A DNA stretch of 64,000 nucleotides from Thermoguttaceae bacterium (GCA_025060325.1 JANXBW010000017.1:45504-109503), one strand, 5' to 3'; shown: positions 7,288 to 24,631, counted from the first letter of the stretch. A program made the numbers and translations. Notes: a model not told the origin generated them from the letters alone.

Positions 7288-9186
7288 ATGCAAGCGGCGC
7301 GAGTTTGCTTTTGCGTCATGGTCATCGGGGTTATGGCAGCCGCAGGGTCTTATGTTCTGGCAGCTGACCATGAAGATTTCGCGAATTGTGTGGATGTCTT
7401 TTCCTCTTGGCCTCTTGCTTACGAAACCTCAGCTTACGAGCTTGCCCCCGTGTGGCGGCAACCCCAGCGAGCTTGGCAGCCGGAAGAGCTTCTCAGGGAA
7501 CTTCGCCGTCGCGTCTCCTGGGAGAAAAGTCGGCAAGAGCTCCAGGTTTACTATTACCGGATTGGCTATACGATTGCCTTTCCTCTGCCTGTTGACAAGA
7601 GACCTGATCCGGCTGGTTTTCCCGCCGGAATTCCCGAAATTACCTATCCGTGGCTAACATGGCTGAGTTGGGAGCTTGATGAAAGATGGCGGATCCTGCT
7701 GGCTGGCTGCGAATTGCTTGCCGACGATGAGGCTAAGGCCATTTTGCAAAAAGAGTTGGGCAATTTGGCCTGGGAGAACTACCGTGGTGACGGTAATGCG
7801 GTAGGATTACCCACCGGGCATTTTGCCGGTGTGCTTGCCCTGACCCTAAGCAAGGAGAATCTTTGGGATGAGTCAACACGTGCCGGCATGGAACAGGCGG
7901 CCAGGAAGCTTTTGGAAGAGGATATCGCTCCGTGGTTTGAAAAGAATTGGGCCGAGCCGAAACCGATCACCTCGCCTCGGCTTCACAACTATGTTCTCAT
8001 CCTGTTTCGGGCAGCACAGCTTGCCCGCGTTCTGAAGCATCCGATGACATCCTCGCTTGAAGCCAGGGCAGAAGATGTTTTTCGCGCCTGGTGTCAAGCC
8101 CGGAAGGCCCCGGTCTATCATAGCGAAGGTACGGCCTACGACGGGTATCTCCTTGATGCAGTAACCGAGTGGATAGAGGGTTTGCCGGCGGAAAAGCACC
8201 GGGAACTTGTTGACTTTGGCCAGGCGCCTCTTGTTGACTTTTGTCGGCAGGCAATTGCGCTTTGTCTGCCTGGGCGGGTGGACCTCCAGGCCCCCCTAGG
8301 CGATGTGGAGCCAGAAATGGCCTTTTGGGCTACGGTGCTTGCCCGACTTGCTAGGTGGTACGATATACCGGAAGCATGCTGGCTCCTAAAATTTTTCCCG
8401 CCCTCGCGCTTCCGGGCAGAAGCATTACGTCAACTTGTTTACCACAGTGAGTCTTTTGGTCGAGATTTCCCGGCGCCTTCCGGTGGGGCGCGGGAGCAGA
8501 TGGCCTCCGTTTCCCTCCGTACGGGCTTTTGGCCTTCCGACTGCCTTGTGGCAGTAGGGCTTCCCCGTTGTCAAATGGGGCATCTCCATCCGGATGCTGG
8601 CCAAGTGGTGATCGGTTGGCAAGGCCGGTTTTGGGTGACCGATCCCGGTTATCAACAGTATCGCCGTGGGGAGGAACGTGTTTACACCTTGGGGCCCCGG
8701 TCGCACAACCTCCCTGTCGTGGGTGGCGTTGCGGCCAGTAAGTTAGCGGGCCAGTTACTTGAACTTGGCGAGGGGGCCGACGAACTTCGCGCGGCTGTGG
8801 ACATCACGCCGGCTTACTCGGGTTTAGGATCGGAGGGAAGGATCGTCCGTACGATTGTGCTCCGAGGAAAAGGCCCTTCGTACACAGTAACTGTTTCGGA
8901 TCATTTTAAAGATTTTGCCCCGGGGACCGAGGTGATCTATCACTGGCTTGGCGGTGCTTACTTGGCGTGGGCATTTCGGGAGGGGTGGGCACGATTAAGC
9001 GACGGAAAGCACAGTCTGTGGATTGCCTGCGGGCAGGCACCGATCATGGCCCGACACCTTGACCGCCACCCCGGGAGTCGTGGCCCGCTGACACTGGCAG
9101 TGCCTTTAAAGATCGAGGATTCGTCAACAACCATCACCTGGTCTTTCCACCTTGTCCCTGGACCTTCGTGGACGCCACCCAAGTAG
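7288..9186 (+). CDS. Secreted heparinase II/III-like polysaccharide lyase-type protein
   Basis: Signal peptide, alpha/alpha-toroid-like helical region, then beta-rich C-terminus with GHLHPDAGQVVIGWQGRFWVTDPGYQQY, resembling heparinase II/III-like domain; follows GH88. Confidence 0.6.
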   Translation: MQAARVCFCVMVIGVMAAAGSYVLAADHEDFANCVDVFSSWPLAYETSAYELAPVWRQPQRAWQPEELLRELRRRVSWEKSRQELQVYYYRIGYTIAFPLPVDKRPDPAGFPAGIPEITYPWLTWLSWELDERWRILLAGCELLADDEAKAILQKELGNLAWENYRGDGNAVGLPTGHFAGVLALTLSKENLWDESTRAGMEQAARKLLEEDIAPWFEKNWAEPKPITSPRLHNYVLILFRAAQLARVLKHPMTSSLEARAEDVFRAWCQARKAPVYHSEGTAYDGYLLDAVTEWIEGLPAEKHRELVDFGQAPLVDFCRQAIALCLPGRVDLQAPLGDVEPEMAFWATVLARLARWYDIPEACWLLKFFPPSRFRAEALRQLVYHSESFGRDFPAPSGGAREQMASVSLRTGFWPSDCLVAVGLPRCQMGHLHPDAGQVVIGWQGRFWVTDPGYQQYRRGEERVYTLGPRSHNLPVVGGVAASKLAGQLLELGEGADELRAAVDITPAYSGLGSEGRIVRTIVLRGKGPSYTVTVSDHFKDFAPGTEVIYHWLGGAYLAWAFREGWARLSDGKHSLWIACGQAPIMARHLDRHPGSRGPLTLAVPLKIEDSSTTITWSFHLVPGPSWTPPK

Positions 9187-9343
9187 GCTGTTGGTATCCT
9201 TGGCCGGCATGTCGATTTAAGCTTGCTTGGTCTTGCGCCCGCCGAAGGTTGGCCAATTAGGAAAGCCGCCTCCTGCTAATATTTTTGAACCAGGAGCTGC
9301 TCCCCGGGTTCACCGAGGGCTATTTGGGAGGGCGACTTCTGCG

Positions 9344-11734
9344 TTAATGCGTCAGGAAATAGAGAAGGACATTTGCGACAAGCCGGAAGGCATCTTCGCG
9401 CACATAGCCTTGGCATTCTGGGCCGCTATAGCCTTCTAAAGCGCAACTGATGTCATAGGGGGAGAAGATGACCGCCCACCGGCCGTCGCGCTTGATCCCT
9501 TCGAGAACGGGCGGGCCAATTTCAACTTCCGCATTCGGTTGCCCAGGTCGGCGGACCTGCCGGCGGATTTGCCGCAGGTCGTAGCCCCCCAAGTCCGGGA
9601 GGAACAAAACTTCGTCAACAGGTATGGGAACAAGCGAAGAATCCGGGAAGAGCTCGGCCATCTCGCGGCGAAAGGACTCGGCAAAGGCCGGGCTGGAGCA
9701 GATAGCATCGGCCAGCACGGATCCGCCTCTGTCGACATATTCTCTTAACCGTTGCCGCTGAGCCTGCGAGAGGACAAAGGCATTTCTTCCTGGAAAGAAA
9801 AGTATGGGCAGCTGAAAGATGGCAGGATCGGCTAGATCCACGCTTTCTGCCACAGGATAGGAGTTAAGGCGAAGTTCCCGCTCAAGGGTGCTTGTTAGCT
9901 CCAGGAGCGCACGGGGCGTAACCGCGCAGCTTCCCCCATGACGAACCATGGCCAAGGGCAATTGGTGGCGCGATCGGGCCACGGCTGTGCGAAGCCGGGT
10001 GGCAGGACTAGCCGGGTCTTTAAACCGCAGCTCCCGACCCGTGGCATAAGCCAGGATGTTGACGCCTAAGGCGATCGCAGCGTCAATTTCCCCTTGGACT
10101 GGTGGCGGATAAACTTCACTTCGCCCCGGCCGAGCAAGCTCCCACAAACAGGAAAGTGACGGCCGGTCTCCATCCGGCGGGATGTACACGACAGAGGTCC
10201 GGCAGCCATACTGTATTCCCAGTAAAGGACGGATGTACCGTGCCGGAATCGGGAGCTCCATCCGCCAAAGAGGATGCTCCGGCGGCAGCGGTTCCAAGCG
10301 ATACTGCCCTTCCGGAAAGACAAGTTCCACAAGCCGCCGAAAGCCACTATCGAAATCGGAGCTAGCGCAATTACACTCCGCTAGAAGGAATCCTCCCTGA
10401 TCGAGGTAGCCGCGGATCTTGGCCGCCACAGCCTGAGCGCCTTCTGTTGACAAAGGCAGTGGGCTCGCCTTACCAGCCAAGTAGAGTACGGGCGCTTCTA
10501 ACAAGTCGGGGACATCGGCCCGATCCAGGGGAATGACCTGCCACACCAAATCCCGCCGCCACAAGCGTTCCACATGAAAGGTCAAATTGGCCAGGTCGTT
10601 GCGATGAGGATTCCAATCCCCCTCATTGCCGTAGCGAAGCTTGGCTGCCAACACTGGCCAGCGCCCCTTGGCCAAAAAGATAAGTGCCATGGATGTGGCG
10701 ATAAACTCGTTTGCTTCGTCACCGGCTGTGCCCCGCCAATGGTCACTGGCCTGCCCTTTGGCGCGTAAGAGTTGCTCAGCACCAGCGCGGTACCAGTCGT
10801 GTCGACCAATAAAGCGTTGGGAGGTCATCCGCCCGACGCGCTCCAGGCCATAAAGGTAGTAAAACCACCAGGCCCCGGGTAACCCGGGATTATGGCTTAC
10901 TGAAAAGACATCATCGCGGCCAAGCCACTGTAGCGCCCGAGCGACGCGGTCCGGCCCGGTCTCGCTAGGACGGCAACAAACGACTTTTTCCCCTTCCACT
11001 TGAGCATCCGGAGGTCGAAGCCGGCCGTTGCAGATAATAAGCGCCGCAATACCTGCCGCAGTCATACTCCCTGTGCCAAACAGCCCCTGCTTGTAACCCC
11101 ACGAGCCGTCGGCATTTTGTACACGCTCCCAATAGGCCTTCGCCAACCGATAGGTGCGTGCGTCCACCTGAACGCCCGCCAACTCTGCCTCGTAAAGAGC
11201 AAGGAGGGCGAATTGGGAATTGGAATTATCCCCTTGTAAGGCCGGATATCCCCAGGCACCAGCGGTGGCCGGATCATCCTTGATTTGCATCTGTTCCAGC
11301 CAGCGGACATTTCGCTCGATGAGTGCCCGATCCTTCTCCGGCTCGGCCCGGCAAAAGACCATCGTCTGAAGGGCCACGGAGTAGGTCTTGGCGGTGCGGT
11401 CAAGAGGGATTTTGCGGAGGTAGGTGAGCGCGGCCTGAATGGCCGGGTCACCCGGATCGACACCGGCGCTTAAAAGGGCTAGCGTGCACAGGGCGGTAAC
11501 CCCGCCGGGGTAGCCGGGCTTTTCCGGCCAGCTACCGTTCCGCTGCGTGCGTTTCAAAAAAGCCACCGCTCCATCAATCGCTTGCCGGACGTCTTCGGCC
11601 GTCACTTCGGCCAAGAGAGTCCTCGGGTTCCGGAATGTAAGGCCTACTAAGCATAGCCAAATTATCCACAAGCGAGGTATGAGAAAGGCCGCCGGCAGAA
11701 GGCGCCGGTAGGATCGGTGATTACGATTTGCCAT
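9344..11734 (-). CDS. DUF4159 domain protein with prenyltransferase/squalene-cyclase-like repeats
   Basis: AIDGAVAFLKRTQRNGSWPEKPGYPGGVTALCTLALL repeats, then DUF4159-like C-terminus (LAECNCASSDFDSGFRRLVELVFPE..., GGYDLRQIRRQ). Start chosen at internal ATG (ORF extends to 11833). Confidence 0.75.
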   Translation of the reverse strand: MANRNHRSYRRLLPAAFLIPRLWIIWLCLVGLTFRNPRTLLAEVTAEDVRQAIDGAVAFLKRTQRNGSWPEKPGYPGGVTALCTLALLSAGVDPGDPAIQAALTYLRKIPLDRTAKTYSVALQTMVFCRAEPEKDRALIERNVRWLEQMQIKDDPATAGAWGYPALQGDNSNSQFALLALYEAELAGVQVDARTYRLAKAYWERVQNADGSWGYKQGLFGTGSMTAAGIAALIICNGRLRPPDAQVEGEKVVCCRPSETGPDRVARALQWLGRDDVFSVSHNPGLPGAWWFYYLYGLERVGRMTSQRFIGRHDWYRAGAEQLLRAKGQASDHWRGTAGDEANEFIATSMALIFLAKGRWPVLAAKLRYGNEGDWNPHRNDLANLTFHVERLWRRDLVWQVIPLDRADVPDLLEAPVLYLAGKASPLPLSTEGAQAVAAKIRGYLDQGGFLLAECNCASSDFDSGFRRLVELVFPEGQYRLEPLPPEHPLWRMELPIPARYIRPLLGIQYGCRTSVVYIPPDGDRPSLSCLWELARPGRSEVYPPPVQGEIDAAIALGVNILAYATGRELRFKDPASPATRLRTAVARSRHQLPLAMVRHGGSCAVTPRALLELTSTLERELRLNSYPVAESVDLADPAIFQLPILFFPGRNAFVLSQAQRQRLREYVDRGGSVLADAICSSPAFAESFRREMAELFPDSSLVPIPVDEVLFLPDLGGYDLRQIRRQVRRPGQPNAEVEIGPPVLEGIKRDGRWAVIFSPYDISCALEGYSGPECQGYVREDAFRLVANVLLYFLTH

Positions 11735-11900
11735 TGTTCTCGTCGACAATCTTAAGACGATGACAGGCGGCTCGTTTTTGGGTGCGGCAAGAATTTGACA
11801 CAAGAATTGGCCGCTAGGGCGACAAACGTTCACTTAGAGTTACCAGCATAGTATCTACCAAAAAGGCGGTCGAGGCTTTAAGCGTCGAAGCTCTCCGTGA

Positions 11901-12092
11901 TTACGCACTTGAGGGATTTTGTCCCGCGCGGGAGCCCGGCGCTTGCGAGTGGCTTGCCCTCTGGGTTGGGTGCCCCTCCCGCGGTGGATGGTAGGTGCGA
12001 AGCCAAACGGTCATTAGCGTAAACAGCCAGCGAACAGCAAGATACGATACCACAACATAAAGCGCAAAACGGAAAACAGTGTTTATATCCAC
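11901..12092 (-). CDS. Small single-TM hypothetical protein (tentative)
   Basis: GTG start giving VDINTVFRFALYVVVSYLAVRWLFTLMTVWLRTY hydrophobic segment; directly downstream of PII gene. Start uncertain. Confidence 0.3.
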   Translation of the reverse strand: MDINTVFRFALYVVVSYLAVRWLFTLMTVWLRTYHPPREGHPTQRASHSQAPGSRAGQNPSSA

Positions 12093-12358
12093 CGAACGAA
12101 CTCCGAACCGGGCGAACTCCGAAGAATTTCTCCGCTTAGTGCCCTTAAGAATCTGGAGCGGCTGGCTTGCCCAGTCCCCCTTTTCGCTCCGCGGTTTTCG
12201 ATCCAAGGGGTAGTTGAGTTGTTCCCGGACAAGCTTAACGCAGTCGGCCATTCCAAACGAGCGGTCAACTGTCGATGAAACCACCCCCAGCTTTAGCCTA
12301 ATGGCAATGTCAGTCCATCTGGCACTCGTTTTGATCAGAGCTGGCAAGCTCGGCTCGT

Positions 12359-12706
12359 CTATGACGCCTCTACCTCGATCGTTGCCGCGGCGGCCTTTTC
12401 GTCACCGGTAGGGTCCGCGGCCGGCACCACGAAGATCTTCCCGTCGCCCATACGTCCTGTTCGCGCCGCGGAAACAATCGCTCGGATCACCTGCTCGGTT
12501 TTCTCGTCTCTCACCCAAAGCGTAAGTTGCACCTTCGGCAAGTAAGCAAGCGAGTATTCGCTGCCCCGATATTCGTCGAGATAGCTTTTTTGTCGACCAA
12601 ATCCCTTCACCTCTCGGACAGCAAGGGCTTCGATCGCGGTCGGGTCAAGGGCCGCAAGCACTTTTTCTGCCAAAAACGGCCGAACAATGGCAATTATCTG
12701 CTTCAT
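12359..12706 (-). CDS. PII family nitrogen regulatory protein
   Basis: MKQIIAIVRPFLAEKVLAAL...VREVKGFGRQKSYLDEYRGSEYSLAYLPKVQLTLWV...GRMGDGKIFVVP, PII signatures including the T-loop. Confidence 0.92.
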   Translation of the reverse strand: MKQIIAIVRPFLAEKVLAALDPTAIEALAVREVKGFGRQKSYLDEYRGSEYSLAYLPKVQLTLWVRDEKTEQVIRAIVSAARTGRMGDGKIFVVPAADPTGDEKAAAATIEVEAS

Positions 12707-15647: not shown

Positions 15648-16637
15648 ATGATGCCCTTTGTGGTCCTGAGGAAGGACAAGATTCCGGAGATTACCGATCG
15701 GCTAGTGGCGACCTATCGCGAGGTAGAGAGCCTTACCCATCTCGGTCACTGCCCTTTGCCAAATTACGAGGTCGTCATTAGCTGCATTGAAGATCTAAAG
15801 GAGGTGCTTTTCCCGGGTTATCGCCGGCGGGAGTTTCTCCATTGGGAGAACATTGGCTACTACGTGGGCTCGTTGATCGACAGACTGCACGATCGGCTGC
15901 GGGCCCAGATTGCTCGGGCACTGTGCCACGCTGCCGGAGATGACATCAGTTGCACTTCGGAACAGAGGACGTTTTACGAAAGGCTCGGTGACGAGAAGGC
16001 GATTGCCTTTCTGGAACAACTCCCGGAGCTGCGGCGGATCTTGGCGTTGGACGCTCAGGCGGCCTACGATGGCGATCCGGCGTGTAAGTCGCTGGATGAG
16101 GTCATCTTCTGCTACCCGGGATTTGAGGCAGTAACTGTTTATCGACTTGCTCATTTGCTGCATGAGTTAGGCGTGCCGCTCATCCCGCGAATGATGACCG
16201 AATGGGCACATAGCCGCACGGGAATCGATATTCATCCGGGCGCAAAGATCGGCAAACATTTCTTCATCGACCACGGTACTGGTGTTGTCATTGGCGAGAC
16301 CTGCGAAATCGGCGACCACGTTAAGATCTATCAGGGGGTGACGCTGGGGGCACTCAGCTTTCCCACGGATGCTGAGGGGAAACTTGTCCGTGGACTAAAG
16401 CGCCACCCCACGATCGAGGATCGTGTTGTCATTTACGCCAATGCGACTATCTTAGGCGGTGAGACGGTGATCGGGCATGATTCAGTCATTGGATCAAGCG
16501 TTTGGTTGACAAGCTCCGTCCCGCCGTATACGACCGTCACCATGGAGAAGCCTCGTTTACGTATGCGGGGCAAGAACGGCGATGAGCTTCGGCCCGTGGT
16601 CAAAGAGCCGGTACCCGCGGCTGACTCGCAAGTCTAG
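15648..16637 (+). CDS. cysE: Serine O-acetyltransferase
   Basis: SAT N-terminal helices plus hexapeptide-repeat domain: [50 protein letters not shown]. Confidence 0.92.
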
Positions 16638-17339: not shown

Positions 17340-20300
17340 TTATCCTACGGGCCTTAAATTGACGGCATTAAGAACGAGTTTGCCGCTGGATGGGTGTGTG
17401 GAAACCGCCAGTTGGAAAATGACGACCTGGCTTTGCATTAGGGCATGGCCGGGCTCAATTCGAAAATCCCTGTAATACGGCACAAAGAGCCACTCCGAGT
17501 TTTTCTGATAGCCGAACAAGTTTATCCCTTGCAACTCCTCGGGGGACGGAGCTGTGTCCGGAGAAGTCAGGCGCCGGTTAAGTGCCTCGATTCGCTCGTG
17601 TTCTGCGTGATTGTGGATCAACTGCTTTTGCGAAAAACGCAGATGGGCACAAAGACGGGCAAATTCAGCTTTAAGGTTGGTATCTTCTTTCTTTCGGATC
17701 TTTGGCAGCAAGTGGGAAGAGGCATACTCAATCGCCGCCTGAACATGGCCGCACTCGAAAAGAAGGAATAGCTCCAGGGCGTCAGCCGAATATTGTCGGG
17801 AAATAAGCCTAGGGAGTTCGCTGCAAAGCTCCTTGGCTTTCTCAGGTGGAGCTACCGATGCTAAAAGTTTTTCCAAGGTGGCTGTGGACAGTGTGCCATG
17901 GGCCCAAGCCGTCCGGATGAACCGGATGGCATCGGTTATTCGCCCCTGGGAAACAGCAGCTGCCACAAGCCGTTCACCCATCTCGTCAACTAATCGTAAG
18001 CAGCGCACATAGTGCCCGGCCTGTGGGAACTTCCCCTCGTCGATTAACTGCGTAATCAGACTCCCAACAAAGGTCCTGACGGCTTCCGACGCTTTCTGCC
18101 CTTGCCAACGGACTTTGTGGAAAGATTCCAGGATTTTGGCAGCTCCTTCCTCCTGAGCACGCTGCTCCAGCAGCTCAAGTATTCCACTTTGATCAGGTCG
18201 GGAACCAAGACGCCCTATCCAAGGAAGCGCAATCTCCAAATAACCGTTTGCTAAGCACCATGCGAGAAACCTGTCCCCAAGTTCCTGAAACTTTTTTCGT
18301 TCGCGTAAAGGGGATTCACGTGACCATTGACTTGGCAGCCAGTATAGGTACAGAGCGACGGTGTCCAGCGCGTTCACCTGAGACGCAATATCCAGAAAGT
18401 TTTCGAAAACCCCTGTTAATAGTCCGGTTTCTGCAAGCGCCTGCGTAACCGATCTGACGAGATCTGCGTGGCACAGGGCGTGTACAGCGCGAAGGAGCGA
18501 AGCTGTGGAAATTTTCGCTAGCCTTTTGAAGCATTCCTTAAGCTCGTTTAATTGAACCCCGGCTTTCCAAGGCCAAAGTAATGCTGCAAGCTCAGCTTGC
18601 TGTAAACCCAGTTTAATGCCCCAGACAATGGCCGCCCCTACGCGTCGTTCTTCGGCTAGCTTGTCAATCAAAAATTCCGGCGTCAACTCTGCCGAAAGAT
18701 TGAATTCCTCGATCAGACGAAGGGCCTCTTCCCACTGTCCTGCCTTGATATACCCATCAACTATTTTCCGGCCAAGCTGCGCGCGTAGTCCGAGGCGTCT
18801 TGTCCATTCTGTGGCCGCACCGAGCTTGCCTGACTCAACCAGCTTGCAAAGCCACTCTGCGACAGGATAGCTGTTTTGCTCCCCTAATGTTTCGACGATC
18901 AGCAGGGCATGCTCCCAGTTCCCGGAGGCTATCGTATTTTGGAGAATCTGCCGGGGAAATTGCGCCAACAGGTCTAGTTCCTTAAGAAAAGAGAGTGCGG
19001 CAGGTACTCCTTCGGTCTCGATTAGGTGTTGGGTAAAAGTTTTGAAACCCAGCTCTGGTTCTAACTGTTGACGAAGGCCGGCTGACAGACGCTCATGCCA
19101 CTCTCTTAGAAGTCTCAGGGCCGTTTTCCATTGACAAGCGTTCTTAAGGCCCTGGAGGATCGTCCGTGCGAATTGCTCCTCCAATCCAAACTGAGACACC
19201 CAATTGCCGGCGAGAGTAAATTTTCTTTTCTCGCATAGCTCCTCGATCCACCTGGCAGGAGGAAATTCATTTTCGAGTTGCAGCCGCCAGATACACTCCA
19301 AGATAATTTCGGTCTGGTCCTCGCGCTGGCAAGCTTGGATTAAGGTGGGAGCCAGTTTACGGAGCTGAAATTTTTCCATCCAATGAAGTGCTTCAGTTAC
19401 CGAGCCTTGTCGAATGAGTTTTTCGACGTATGGGGCCGGATCAACCATGTCTTCCAATTGGAAGCCCCATATGAACAACAAACAGAATCGGGGCGCGAAC
19501 TCGTACTTTGTCCACTTTTTGGTGAGGAGGTCAGCGGCCTCTTCTTGAAGGTTTGCAGGAATGGGGGCTTCCCTTGACTGAAGTGGAGCGAGCAATGCTT
19601 CCGCGTATCGTCGTGCATTCGGCCCCAGTCTCCGCAGGGCGCTGAAGGTCGCCTCGACGGCCGGGGCCTCCCCGGTAAACGCGCGGGCCAAAATCCGCGG
19701 AATGCCAGCTATGTGTTTGACTTGTCGGGCCTCCCGAAGCCAGTGGGCTAAAGTCTTCCCGTCCCCGAGGATATAGATGGTCCGGAACTTCTCCGTTAGC
19801 TCATTTTCCGACTGCCGTGGCAAGCTGGAGATGTCCAGACGCCCCAGAACGTTCGTTACGCGTTCAATGGAGGGAGCCAATTCGCTTTGTACACACCGGG
19901 CAGCCAAGGACAGTTCTCGTTCGACGACACTGTCGAAAAGTGCCTTCGGCGACCCAAGTAGGCCGTAGAGGAGCACCAATGGCTCTCGCCAAAACTCGTT
20001 GCCTCTGAGCGGCTCGATCGCTGTGGGCGAAAGCTCATAGCGGGCTTTCAACCCAAGCGCGGCGAAATACTCTTGGTACATTTCGTGGGCGAAAGCGAGG
20101 ATATCCCCTTGGTCGGTGAGAAGCCCATTGTCGACGATTTCGTGAACAAACGCTGCGGAGTCAACTTGGTAACCTACTGCGTTGGCACGAGAATTTATGA
20201 CCTCCCAAGCGTAAAGCCGCGGAAAACTTACGCGATTATCGAGCCGGGACTTATACCCCAGCTCACTTAACAGATCAAGCTTTATATCTCGACGTGTCTG

Positions 20301-21899
20301 TGGTCCTTTCGCTTCCTCCCGCGCTAAGAGATAGTTGACAAATTTTTGGAAAAGTAATCCACGATTGGGGGGCAGTTCCCCACCGGTTTTCCCACCGACC
20401 TGTGCTAGCATCCACAGGCGAAGTGGATTCCGCCCCCACTCCCACAAGCGAGGGTTGTTGCGCAGAAGCCGACTGAATTTTTCGCAGTCAACGCTGCGCT
20501 CAAAGTGCCGTCTCAGGAATTCGTCGATTTGTTGATCGGTCAAGGGATCGAGTCGAAAAACCGGAAGACCGAGACGCCAAAGCAGGGGATGAGGCCGGGA
20601 CGCCACAACTAGTGGCGCATCCGGAAAGTCATGGATAAGCTTTTCCAATTCCCCAGAAGCCCGCTCAAGAAGATCCGACCGAACCTCATTAAGTCCGTCT
20701 AGAAGGAGGATCCACTCGCCGGCGGCAAGGGAATTTTCAAACTGGCCGCGTTTGAGTGGCACTGTTTTCAAAGCTTGCCCAAGCAAATCCCACAAACCTT
20801 CCGGGCCGTAAAAACGTAGCTCGATGTAAACAGGTAGAGGCTTGAAGACGTGGGGACTTGCCAGGAGCTCAGTTGCCCGGCGATAGGCAAAATGTTGTAA
20901 GGAGGTTGTCTTACCAGCACCGGCTTCGGCAACAAGGGCAAGCCGCCCCACAGATTCGAAAAGCTGATGCACCTTTCCAGACCGGAGCGGTCGTCCCCAC
21001 GTTTTCTCCTCGGCGACTCTACCGCCAAAGAGCCGTTGACCCTCGCCGGCAATCTGTGCTTGTTGGTATGTCGAGGTGGCCGCCTCCTCAACTGGGAGAT
21101 CTATATCGCCGGAATCTCCCCACGCATCCCAACGAAGATCTAACTCGCCTGCGGAGAGTTCCAGAAGCTCCTCACTTGGCTGCTCGGCTGCGTCCAAAAG
21201 GATCCACCGGCGGAGATGCTCCTCCCACCTTTGCTGAATATGACAAACGTAACTCTTGCAGGATTCCACGCGGTTTCTGTTGCGAAATGCGGGTGCCACC
21301 TGGGCGGTGCACCAGAACATGACCAGGAGGCAATCCACAATTGATCGAGCCAACTGGAAGTCGGACCAAGCCGGGGCGACATGAACCTTGTTGCGGATCT
21401 CCCTAACGCGATAGCTAGCGTCTTGGATTGCTTTTGGCGCCTTTGCGCGAAGATCAAACCCCTTGGGACCTACCAAGTCGCCATAGGTCGGGTTATAGGT
21501 GGGCTGCCGCCAATCCGGTGGTGGTTCGTGAAGCGCTTCCCATCGCTCGGGACTGGCCACGATGAGAAGCCGTTTCAGCAATGGCTCCACAAGCTCTGTC
21601 AGCTTTTTAAAGCCGACGATCTTTTCTTCTCGATTGGCAGTCGAGAGGACATTCCAGATGGCTCCCCGGAAGTGATCTGCGAAGCCGTCATATTCGGGAT
21701 TGCCTATCGGAGTGTCGACGGCCTCGATGAAATCGGCAAGCACGCGAGAGAAGTCAGCGGAACACCTAGCAGATGTCCACTCCGGGAGACACTCCCGCTG
21801 GGCGTAGTCGCGAAACAGGTCCCAAAATTCGGACGAGTGCTCTGCCGAATACATCGGCCGAAAACTCCTGCCGGAACTTTCTTCTGCTCCTTCTATCAT
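17340..21899 (-). CDS. Large STAND/NACHT NTPase with putative HEPN-like N-terminus, helical-repeat C-terminus and small beta-rich C-terminal tail
   Basis: Walker A LVAEAGAGKTTSLQHFAYRRA, Walker B-like EWILLLDGLNEV, sensor PLVVASRPH; N-terminal REIRNKVH motif; multiple about 35-residue helical repeats (e.g. AGQWEEALRLIEEFNLS). Confidence 0.85.
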   Translation of the reverse strand: MIEGAEESSGRSFRPMYSAEHSSEFWDLFRDYAQRECLPEWTSARCSADFSRVLADFIEAVDTPIGNPEYDGFADHFRGAIWNVLSTANREEKIVGFKKLTELVEPLLKRLLIVASPERWEALHEPPPDWRQPTYNPTYGDLVGPKGFDLRAKAPKAIQDASYRVREIRNKVHVAPAWSDFQLARSIVDCLLVMFWCTAQVAPAFRNRNRVESCKSYVCHIQQRWEEHLRRWILLDAAEQPSEELLELSAGELDLRWDAWGDSGDIDLPVEEAATSTYQQAQIAGEGQRLFGGRVAEEKTWGRPLRSGKVHQLFESVGRLALVAEAGAGKTTSLQHFAYRRATELLASPHVFKPLPVYIELRFYGPEGLWDLLGQALKTVPLKRGQFENSLAAGEWILLLDGLNEVRSDLLERASGELEKLIHDFPDAPLVVASRPHPLLWRLGLPVFRLDPLTDQQIDEFLRRHFERSVDCEKFSRLLRNNPRLWEWGRNPLRLWMLAQVGGKTGGELPPNRGLLFQKFVNYLLAREEAKGPQTRRDIKLDLLSELGYKSRLDNRVSFPRLYAWEVINSRANAVGYQVDSAAFVHEIVDNGLLTDQGDILAFAHEMYQEYFAALGLKARYELSPTAIEPLRGNEFWREPLVLLYGLLGSPKALFDSVVERELSLAARCVQSELAPSIERVTNVLGRLDISSLPRQSENELTEKFRTIYILGDGKTLAHWLREARQVKHIAGIPRILARAFTGEAPAVEATFSALRRLGPNARRYAEALLAPLQSREAPIPANLQEEAADLLTKKWTKYEFAPRFCLLFIWGFQLEDMVDPAPYVEKLIRQGSVTEALHWMEKFQLRKLAPTLIQACQREDQTEIILECIWRLQLENEFPPARWIEELCEKRKFTLAGNWVSQFGLEEQFARTILQGLKNACQWKTALRLLREWHERLSAGLRQQLEPELGFKTFTQHLIETEGVPAALSFLKELDLLAQFPRQILQNTIASGNWEHALLIVETLGEQNSYPVAEWLCKLVESGKLGAATEWTRRLGLRAQLGRKIVDGYIKAGQWEEALRLIEEFNLSAELTPEFLIDKLAEERRVGAAIVWGIKLGLQQAELAALLWPWKAGVQLNELKECFKRLAKISTASLLRAVHALCHADLVRSVTQALAETGLLTGVFENFLDIASQVNALDTVALYLYWLPSQWSRESPLRERKKFQELGDRFLAWCLANGYLEIALPWIGRLGSRPDQSGILELLEQRAQEEGAAKILESFHKVRWQGQKASEAVRTFVGSLITQLIDEGKFPQAGHYVRCLRLVDEMGERLVAAAVSQGRITDAIRFIRTAWAHGTLSTATLEKLLASVAPPEKAKELCSELPRLISRQYSADALELFLLFECGHVQAAIEYASSHLLPKIRKKEDTNLKAEFARLCAHLRFSQKQLIHNHAEHERIEALNRRLTSPDTAPSPEELQGINLFGYQKNSEWLFVPYYRDFRIEPGHALMQSQVVIFQLAVSTHPSSGKLVLNAVNLRPVG

Positions 21900-22894
21900 A
21901 GTCGGGGGAACGGAGGGATGTGGCGACGATGACTGCTTCCCCCTAAACGGTGTACTTCAATAATCACTAAAAAGGGGGGCAGTCGATTATTCTGTCCGGG
22001 ACTGGAGCTTTTTTAAACAGGCGTTCGCCCTGGGGGATGAGCGGAGCTCCTTAGGCCGAAGGAGATTTGATGAATAGGGTAGCGGTTGGTACCGTGGGCT
22101 CTTCCGGCGGATAGCGCGGCAGAGGTTACCTTTGGCCGGATAGGGCTCGGCTCCCGGATGGGGCAATTCCTCGGTTGCTTCGGAGGATCGTTTGGGAAAA
22201 AGTAGTGCACGGGTTGAGGGAACTCGGCCAAGCGCTTTGGGCTGGGAGGCCACAAGGGCTCCTGATGAGTGGCGGGTATTTTCTCCCACAACGCTTCTTC
22301 GTCGTGATGGCCGGGCATAGGCTCGCTCGCCGTTGCGGGCGTTGATGACTCGGGCAGGAGGCCCATATCTTCTCAAGCGGGGGCAGCGGGGGACTGATCC
22401 AGAGTCGAAGTTGGTCGTTAGGCAAAAGGTGCTGGCGTAGAGGTACTTTCGGAGACCCACCCGGCCGGGAACGGGCTGAGGGGCGAGCCAGGCTCGCAGC
22501 GGGATGTTGACACCGTGGAACTCCCGTTAACTGCCTTGATCCCTATGACGGCCTGCTCATTGCAATGCTGACAGCTTCCATGCTCTACACCCAAGTTGCG
22601 AAAGAGCTGCTAATCCACCCGACTTGCGCGGACAACTGGGCCCAACTTGGCGCGGGTGCGAGGGGTTCGTGGTTAGCTCCTTCCATTTCCTCCGATCGCC
22701 GTTTGTTGGCCGGTCCTTGGATTGCCGTTTATTGGCCGGCAGCCGGAATTCCCGGGCAAAGCGGTGGGCCTTAGTCGACGTTTTCGCGAAGACTGTCGCC
22801 GTGGCGGAAAAAAGCGAGAGAAGGTAAAATTTTCCGAGTGATCACCATTGTCCAGTATATTTCCGAACATTAGTTACATCGGTGGGCGATTAAG

Positions 22895-24631
22895 ATGCCT
22901 CGGGTGCTCCCTCGTGGACTGGGCGAGACCAGTTTAGAGCTGAAGTGTCTCCTTCTCTTTGGGGTCTCGATCGCCATCGTCATTGCGGTCAGCTTCTTCC
23001 TCTATTGGGTCGTCACGGGCAGTGTCGTTTATGGTCAGAATCCGATCAAAGCCCGGCTTTTGGTCGACCAGGTGATGCTTATCAAGCACTGGCAGCAGCT
23101 TGAGACGAACGAGCAATTTCGGCCTTATATCGAGCATTTGCGGCGTAACCTGAGCAATCAGGAGTACGAGTGGCGAGTGATTCATCGGCCGGATAGCCGC
23201 GCCGCTAACCCTGAACTTTTGGGCAGCCCCAACGACGAATTTGAGAAGCAACTCTTAGAGCAGTTTATGCGGCACCGTCGTGCGGGGGACTCGGCGGACA
23301 CTGGCCCAGAATATGCCGAGCGGTATATCAACAACGGCCTGAAGTATCAGTATTACCAGCCGGTGCGTGCTCAGGCGTCTTGTTTGACACTCTGCCATAA
23401 GACCTACTGGCAGCCGGGCGGCTTCGATGTCCCGATCGGTACGGTTCTTTTGGCCAGCGAGCCGCTGGAAGAAGGGGATCTGATGGCCATCGTGCAGGTG
23501 ACGATCCCCAACGGCCCGACACAGTCGGCTGTGACAGAAACATGGAACTGGCTGTTTGCCGTGTCGATTGTCACCGCCTTTTTGGCACTAGTTACTTTTT
23601 ACGTGGTCATTCGTTACGTGATCATTCGTCCCCTTCGACATCTTAAAGAAGTTAGCGAAGCGGTAAGCCGGGGGGACATCGATACCCGGGCGGAGCTTCA
23701 TACCGGCGATGAATTCGAGACGTTAGCTGACGCCTTTAACTGTATGCTCCATCATCTGATCACGGCACAGGAGCAACTGCGGCAGGTCAATGCTGACCTC
23801 GATGCCAAGGTGGACCAACTGGCCCAGCTTAATATGCAGCTTTACGAGATGAACCGAATCAAAAGCGACTTCATGGCCACAATGAGCCACGAATTGCGAA
23901 CGCCGCTCAACAGTATTTTGGGGTTTAGCGAGGTGCTGGCTTCTGCACCCAATTTGGACGAGCGGCAAAAGCGATTTGTGGGCAACATTCAAAAGGCGGG
24001 GCGGATGCTTCTGGAAATGATCAACAACATCTTGGATTTGGCCAAGATCGAAAGTGGGCGGATGGAATTGCGCCCCATCGAGTTTGATGTCGGGCAAATG
24101 ATTTCGGCCGAGTGCGACTTAGCGCGTCCCTTGAGCGAAAAGAAAAAGCTCGAACTTCAAGTGGACGTTCAGCCGAATTTGCCGCCGATGTTCCAAGATG
24201 AATACCGGCTTCGGCAGATTCTCAACAACCTGCTGTCCAATGCTATTAAGTTTACGCCGGAAGGTGGTCGCATTAAGGTCACGGCTCGGCGGGAAAATGG
24301 CTTCCTGGTGCTTCAGGTAAGCGACACGGGGGTGGGAATTTCCGAAGAGGATCAGCAGATTATTTTCGAGAAATTCCGGCAAGGCCGGACCGCGCGGCCG
24401 AGTGGCGATCCGTTTACCCGGGAACACTCCGGCAGCGGACTGGGCCTATCGATCGTCAAAGAGCTTTGTCGACTGATGGGAGGGGAAGTCTCGGTCCAAA
24501 GCCAATTAGGAGTAGGGAGCACGTTTACAGTGCGGATCCCGTGGACCTTGGAAAAATACCCTGCCGGGGAAGTACGCCCGGAGTGGGCCGTGGAGCAAGC
24601 TGTCGGCCTAGCCGGCGAAGGCAGGCGGTAA
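22895..24631 (+). CDS. Sensor histidine kinase: DUF3365 (Tll0287-like heme sensor) - TM - HAMP - HisKA - HATPase
   Basis: N-terminal TM, DUF3365-like region with ASCLTLCHKTYW, HAMP (VIIRPLRHLKEVSEAVSRGDIDTRAEL), H-box MATMSHELRTPLNSILGFSEVL, G-boxes DTGVGISEED and GSGLGLSIV. Confidence 0.93.
   Translation: MPRVLPRGLGETSLELKCLLLFGVSIAIVIAVSFFLYWVVTGSVVYGQNPIKARLLVDQVMLIKHWQQLETNEQFRPYIEHLRRNLSNQEYEWRVIHRPDSRAANPELLGSPNDEFEKQLLEQFMRHRRAGDSADTGPEYAERYINNGLKYQYYQPVRAQASCLTLCHKTYWQPGGFDVPIGTVLLASEPLEEGDLMAIVQVTIPNGPTQSAVTETWNWLFAVSIVTAFLALVTFYVVIRYVIIRPLRHLKEVSEAVSRGDIDTRAELHTGDEFETLADAFNCMLHHLITAQEQLRQVNADLDAKVDQLAQLNMQLYEMNRIKSDFMATMSHELRTPLNSILGFSEVLASAPNLDERQKRFVGNIQKAGRMLLEMINNILDLAKIESGRMELRPIEFDVGQMISAECDLARPLSEKKKLELQVDVQPNLPPMFQDEYRLRQILNNLLSNAIKFTPEGGRIKVTARRENGFLVLQVSDTGVGISEEDQQIIFEKFRQGRTARPSGDPFTREHSGSGLGLSIVKELCRLMGGEVSVQSQLGVGSTFTVRIPWTLEKYPAGEVRPEWAVEQAVGLAGEGRR

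Follow-up and report, generated by a model that had tools for sequence, protein, structure and literature searches.

What does the 1519-residue protein encoded at positions 17340-21899, minus strand, of a 64,000-nucleotide stretch of Thermoguttaceae bacterium (GCA_025060325.1) do, and does it belong to the organism's defences? The whole stretch, hereafter the window, is C8:45504-109503 of a Pirellulales-type metagenome-assembled genome of 4.78 Mb. A preliminary description made from this DNA had proposed an uninterrupted frame of this length, and checking the open reading frame (ORF) and its translation bears this out. The explanation that we favour, to which we would give about an even chance, is a single-gene, NLR-like (STAND/NACHT) defence protein in which an HEPN-type RNase effector is followed by a NACHT motor and by a sensor consisting of a helical solenoid and an OB-like tail.

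The centre of the protein can be firmly assigned, on the strength of its motifs and its profile match, to the NACHT/STAND NTPases. The three strings from which a NACHT module had been proposed are all present: the Walker A motif GAGKTT (residues 327-332, window 20921-20904), DGLNEV (residues 401-406), which closes the Walker B segment LLLDGLNEV at residue 406, and the sensor-1 segment VVASRP (residues 431-436). PF05729 matches residues 322-467 with 29.6 bits against a cut-off of 26.7, and in a Pfam scan of the window protein no family besides NACHT rose above its cut-off. A scan of the genome collection returned a single full-length relative, at 35% identity over residues 18-1518, in the metagenome-assembled genome of Pirellulaceae bacterium KatS3mg110 (locus L034); its PF05729 match reaches 27.2 bits. 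Walker A, Walker B (DGxNE), sensor 1 and the winged-helix pattern FxHxxxxEYFAA, kept in both proteins as FAHEMYQEYFAA, are all found in the window protein and conserved in L034. The helical and winged-helix extension behind the core is the best conserved part between the two, and blast matches to other NACHT proteins extend to about residue 670-700.

The domain that precedes the motor is probably HEPN-like, and we regard an HEPN ancestry as likely, with some room for doubt. HEPN domains are metal-independent RNases built from two alpha-hairpins, with the motif near the end of helix 3. In the N-domain of L034 the string RNRSSH forms a canonical Rx4H motif of this kind. Alignment of the two N-domains leaves V104-E105, L108-K109-R110, R164, R166, R169-N170, H173 and an APAWS segment invariant (window numbering), and the helix RW-EH-RRW (residues 224-232) then leads toward NACHT. 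HEPN motifs are defined as Rx4-6H with a polar residue after the arginine, often together with Ex3[KR] (PMC3710099), and an Ex3K is common to both domains, as VE105PLLK109 in the window and as VEVGLK in L034. The preliminary description had placed the motif at R166-x6-H173; this string (REIRNKVH, residues 166-173) is indeed there, but R166 is probably not catalytic, and R169, which aligns with RNRSSH, is the better candidate since R166 would sit at Rx7H in L034.

An AlphaFold (AF2) model of the N-domain, built from the two-sequence alignment (mean predicted local distance difference test score, pLDDT, of 57), has the helix order H-H-insert-H-H, as in HEPN, with helices at 51-76 carrying the Ex3K, then the insert, at 111-132 ending in RNK, and at 141-159 (model numbering). 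We also aligned the N-domain by hhalign to a profile of 24 planctomycete HEPN_Swt1 domains, with 60 shuffles as background. The score of 19.3 lies above the shuffles (mean 12.7, standard deviation 2.1, maximum 18.2), although by hhalign's own figures (probability 2.5%, P 0.019) the similarity is below significance; the alignment is centred on the RN..H string and pairs RVREIRNK-VH of the window with ELRDCRNKWAH.

Behind the motor the protein reads as helical, with weak repetition and scattered A..W...LGL motifs. Repeats of about 35 residues had been described here; helical repeats are real, but in the window protein they are irregular, with best lags of 45 and 31 and no clean 35-residue period. 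One unit exceeds the cut-off of the PPR model TIGR00756 (24.8 bits, residues 1046-1065), designed PPR proteins in the PDB match residues 993-1088 with E about 1e-6, and a repeat profile built from L034 finds a single strong unit, at 1054-1068. We nevertheless reject the label of a PPR protein with tandem 35-residue motifs: the other units diverge, and those of L034 are 31 or 34 residues long and Frigida-like.

The relative shows how such a solenoid looks when young. Its units of 31 and 34 residues stand in clear tandem, and at L034:10726-11518 they are encoded by in-frame DNA tandem repeats, 102 bp in 5.4 copies (87%) and 93 bp in 2.5 copies (94%); at the protein level two successive units are identical and others are 74-85% identical. 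The window solenoid has no DNA tandem repeats like these. Such near-identical repeats, read from the DNA, suggest repeat turnover with recent amplification of the sensor repeats. Pfam Frigida matches the L034 solenoid with E 1.3e-23, which we read as convergent repeat similarity.

For the C-terminal tail, fair support comes from modelling. The AF2 model of residues 1395-1519 (pLDDT 80, predicted template modelling score 0.75) consists of helices followed by five strands, and the Foldseek top 50 for this model are by our own classification mostly OB folds, among them RuvA, RecJ, RPA14/32, Rim1 SSB, the Unr cold-shock domain and S12, with a best E of 0.13 and no significant match in the PDB. The preliminary description had suggested an OB or cold-shock-type tail, and the sequence quoted for it is there, starting at residue 1459. 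A small OB-like barrel is what the model predicts, but a cold-shock identity finds no support in the sequence: alignment of the window tail to CspA/CspB does not rise above shuffles, and a Pfam scan of the tail gives no match and no cold-shock signature. The L034 tail has 24 additional residues within the barrel region, and a profile of the tail run over 295 genomes finds the two known copies alone at strong E-values, the remainder being noise.

The family is rare. With an N-domain profile we recovered it in 2 of 395 sampled genomes of the same order (Pirellulales), namely the window genome and that of L034, and among 393 Planctomycetota genomes nothing apart from the query itself fell below E 0.01. 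The gene is absent from genus mates and sister genomes. In 100 relatives and 393 members of the phylum, matches were confined to the NACHT region, and plasmids likewise matched in NACHT only, with no match to the L034 N-domain; neither the whole protein nor the N-domain profile matched any viral contig. The L034 gene is moreover broken. Its region (8001-12486) holds no ORF above 800 residues, and the coding sequence, whose pieces we used as they stand, unmended, has a TAG near the start and frame shifts at about 10200, 11660 and 12250, while the neighbouring genes (DXP reductoisomerase, an M50 protease and a pyridine nucleotide-disulphide oxidoreductase) are intact. The gene is either decaying or, in its repeat-rich parts, partly an assembly problem. 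Patchy presence together with a broken second copy is the behaviour of an accessory gene.

Taken as a defence protein, it might work as follows. The solenoid and the OB-like tail would hold the protein off and sense an invader-derived ligand, either a phage protein or a nucleic acid; binding of the ligand would lead to nucleotide exchange in NACHT and to oligomerisation; this would bring the HEPN domains together as dimers, and the dimers could then cut host or viral RNA, so that infection is stopped. A more specific version, which we consider a long shot, is an RNA-sensing bacterial NLR in which the PPR-like solenoid and the OB-like tail bind invader RNA and license the HEPN RNase through NACHT, and in which specificity would diversify as solenoid repeats are amplified in frame.

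Several results weigh against the defence reading, beginning with its effector. No HEPN family in Pfam matches the window protein or L034, even up to E 10, and Foldseek with the N-domain model returns chance-level matches only, the HEPN protein 4nqf standing at rank 29 with E 2.8, indistinguishable from noise, so that the structural picture of the N-terminus is divided between an HEPN-like helix order and a low-confidence model with a fold search at chance. The RN..H-type string is by itself weak evidence for HEPN: R[NDH]x2-5H arises in 16% of shuffles of the window domain and in 35% of shuffles of the L034 domain, and 2% of shuffles place a motif in the same column of the two domains. The blank libraries, the fold search and the frequency of the string would all fit a STAND defence protein with a new all-helical effector other than HEPN, in which the RN..H string is a coincidence, but this is unlikely given that Ex3K and RN-(x3)-H occur in that order in both domains, that the helix arrangement agrees with HEPN, and that the Swt1 profile match is centred on the motif.

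The spacing of the motif also counts against an active HEPN effector. By alignment the window copy reads RNKVH (R169-N170-K-V-H173, or Rx3H), which is non-canonical and has one residue fewer between R169 and H173 than L034; RNase activity of the window copy is uncertain because of this shortening, and it may have been weakened or lost, while the L034 motif is canonical. A STAND defence protein whose N-domain derives from HEPN but is catalytically dead in the window copy is a serious, if clearly less probable, alternative; it would be an adaptor or a decaying gene, with oligomerisation still signalling via a partner or not signalling at all. The intact frame of over 4.5 kb, the retention of every NACHT motif and that of R169, N170, H173 and E105/K109 all argue for function, against the shortened motif, the disruption of L034 itself and the lack of an obvious partner gene. 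An ORF at 21987-22460, considered as a co-transcribed partner, is probably spurious, being without homologue in 60 relatives and without family.

The surroundings of the gene and the thinness of the family point the same way. Housekeeping genes lie beside it at both loci: LpxB-like, serine acetyltransferase-like, histidine kinase, RNase H, AP_endonuc_2 and Lnt genes in the window, and the three intact genes named above in L034. No defence island or defence gene was found beside either copy; PADLOC models, those for Avs included, do not match the window protein, and the sole PADLOC match near the gene is the generic ATPase region of the neighbouring histidine kinase. There is one relative only, and it is not intact. 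With such neighbours one might think of a regulatory or housekeeping STAND protein, engaged in MalT/SWACOS-like signalling and without a role in defence. We consider this improbable, as the protein lacks a DNA-binding output domain, is extremely rare and absent from sister genomes, and has a relative that is disrupted and whose sensor repeats have been tandemly amplified. The defence role proposed in the preliminary description thus draws on the architecture, the patchy distribution and the decay of L034, and not on the genomic neighbourhood, in which the expected association with defence did not appear.

Features of the NACHT gene and its product, in window coordinates
Feature	Position	Strand	Basis
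Whole gene, 1519 aa, single ORF	17340..21899	minus	no in-frame stops; sole copy in own genome
N-terminal helical domain, HEPN-like (probable), residues 40-250	21150..21782	minus	about 34-35% identity to L034 with RNRSSH
NACHT NTPase core, residues 322-467	20499..20936	minus	Pfam PF05729, E 7.4e-7, and motifs, conserved in L034
NACHT helical/winged-helix extension, about residues 468-653	19940..20498	minus	RNPLRLW and FAHEMYQEYFAA
Degenerate alpha-solenoid, about residues 654-1400	17700..19939	minus	PPR/Frigida-like helical hairpins; clearest unit 1029-1068
C-terminal small beta barrel, OB-like (predicted), residues 1459-1519	17343..17525	minus	AF2 model, five strands

The GC content at third codon positions of the NACHT gene (0.564) is the lowest among 18 window genes tested, by a slight margin only. 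The family has kept the genes that flank it, but the sister genome and others carry them at loci apart from each other or turned differently; the gene thus sits at a rearranged junction, and a comparison aimed at an empty site gave no clean one. In one family member (L065) the flanking genes at 15648-16637 and 22895-24631 are convergent neighbours about 600 bp apart, whereas other members have them at separate loci. A single further NACHT match in the source genome (G000:C55:189324-189809, L069) belongs to a 579-residue protein of unrelated architecture whose gene adjoins a serine/threonine kinase gene.

Other NACHT proteins came up in the searches. Long planctomycete ones (L070-L072) were set aside as relatives, having NACHT alone in common with the window protein, and the string RNDGQH of L070 is no equivalent of the HEPN motif, since it sits in an unrelated N-terminus. 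A further group in Planctomycetota (L008, L011, L018, L026, L028, L029 and L031-L033) ends in RVLRGGSW...GFR, a segment that resembles the formylglycine-generating-enzyme/sulfatase-modifying fold and is possibly a variable sensor; sensors diversified by diversity-generating retroelements have been described (PMC10907252). The match on a Lysinibacillus plasmid is a different NACHT gene, which adjoins one for an MBL-fold hydrolase; the two lie 11 bp apart (L074:3007-7340) and possibly form a two-gene defence operon.

How does the protein compare with systems already known? The preliminary description had called its tail unusual, yet in 2013 Anantharaman et al. (PMC3710099) described bacterial proteins that combine HEPN and STAND, some of them ending in a cold-shock-like OB domain; one example with an OB tail is gi 229028907 of Bacillus cereus. 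The order of N-terminal HEPN, central STAND NTPase and, in some, C-terminal OB RNA-binding domain is shared; compared by description, the window protein differs in an N-domain too divergent for HEPN profiles, in a tail not recognisably cold-shock by sequence, and in the PPR/Frigida-like solenoid between them. The bNACHT proteins, antiphage as a class according to PMC12169576 (citing Kibby 2023), have the same NACHT motor, single gene and effector-NACHT-sensor order, but the resemblance to other NACHT proteins that we found is confined to the NACHT region and PADLOC offers no match. To the antiphage model EruA (NCBIfam NF058535) the NACHT region of L034 is similar (E 1.2e-11), with 43.6 bits, far under the equivalog cut-off of 1000, over part of NACHT only. 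Avs (AVAST) STAND proteins likewise combine an N-terminal effector, a STAND ATPase and a long helical-repeat sensor, whereas the window protein is of the NACHT clade, has an additional OB-like tail, and matches no Avs model. Animal NLRs have been proposed to originate from bacterial NACHT proteins. The near-identical tandem units of L034 recall fungal NLRs, in which sensor repeats of high internal conservation are known (PMC4986451); unlike those, they are bacterial and helical, PPR/Frigida-like rather than WD, ANK or TPR, and as a whole they fall somewhat under the fungal criterion of 85% over 100 residues.

The overall architecture being on record in bacterial and animal defence proteins, the surprise is limited: the protein belongs to a new family, divergent and rare, of the HEPN-STAND-OB architecture. 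As a rare single-gene family outside defence islands, it is of the sort missed by island-based surveys, and the arm of L034, growing by duplication of units, offers an easy way to ask whether the sensor of a bacterial NLR is retuned by turnover of its repeats.

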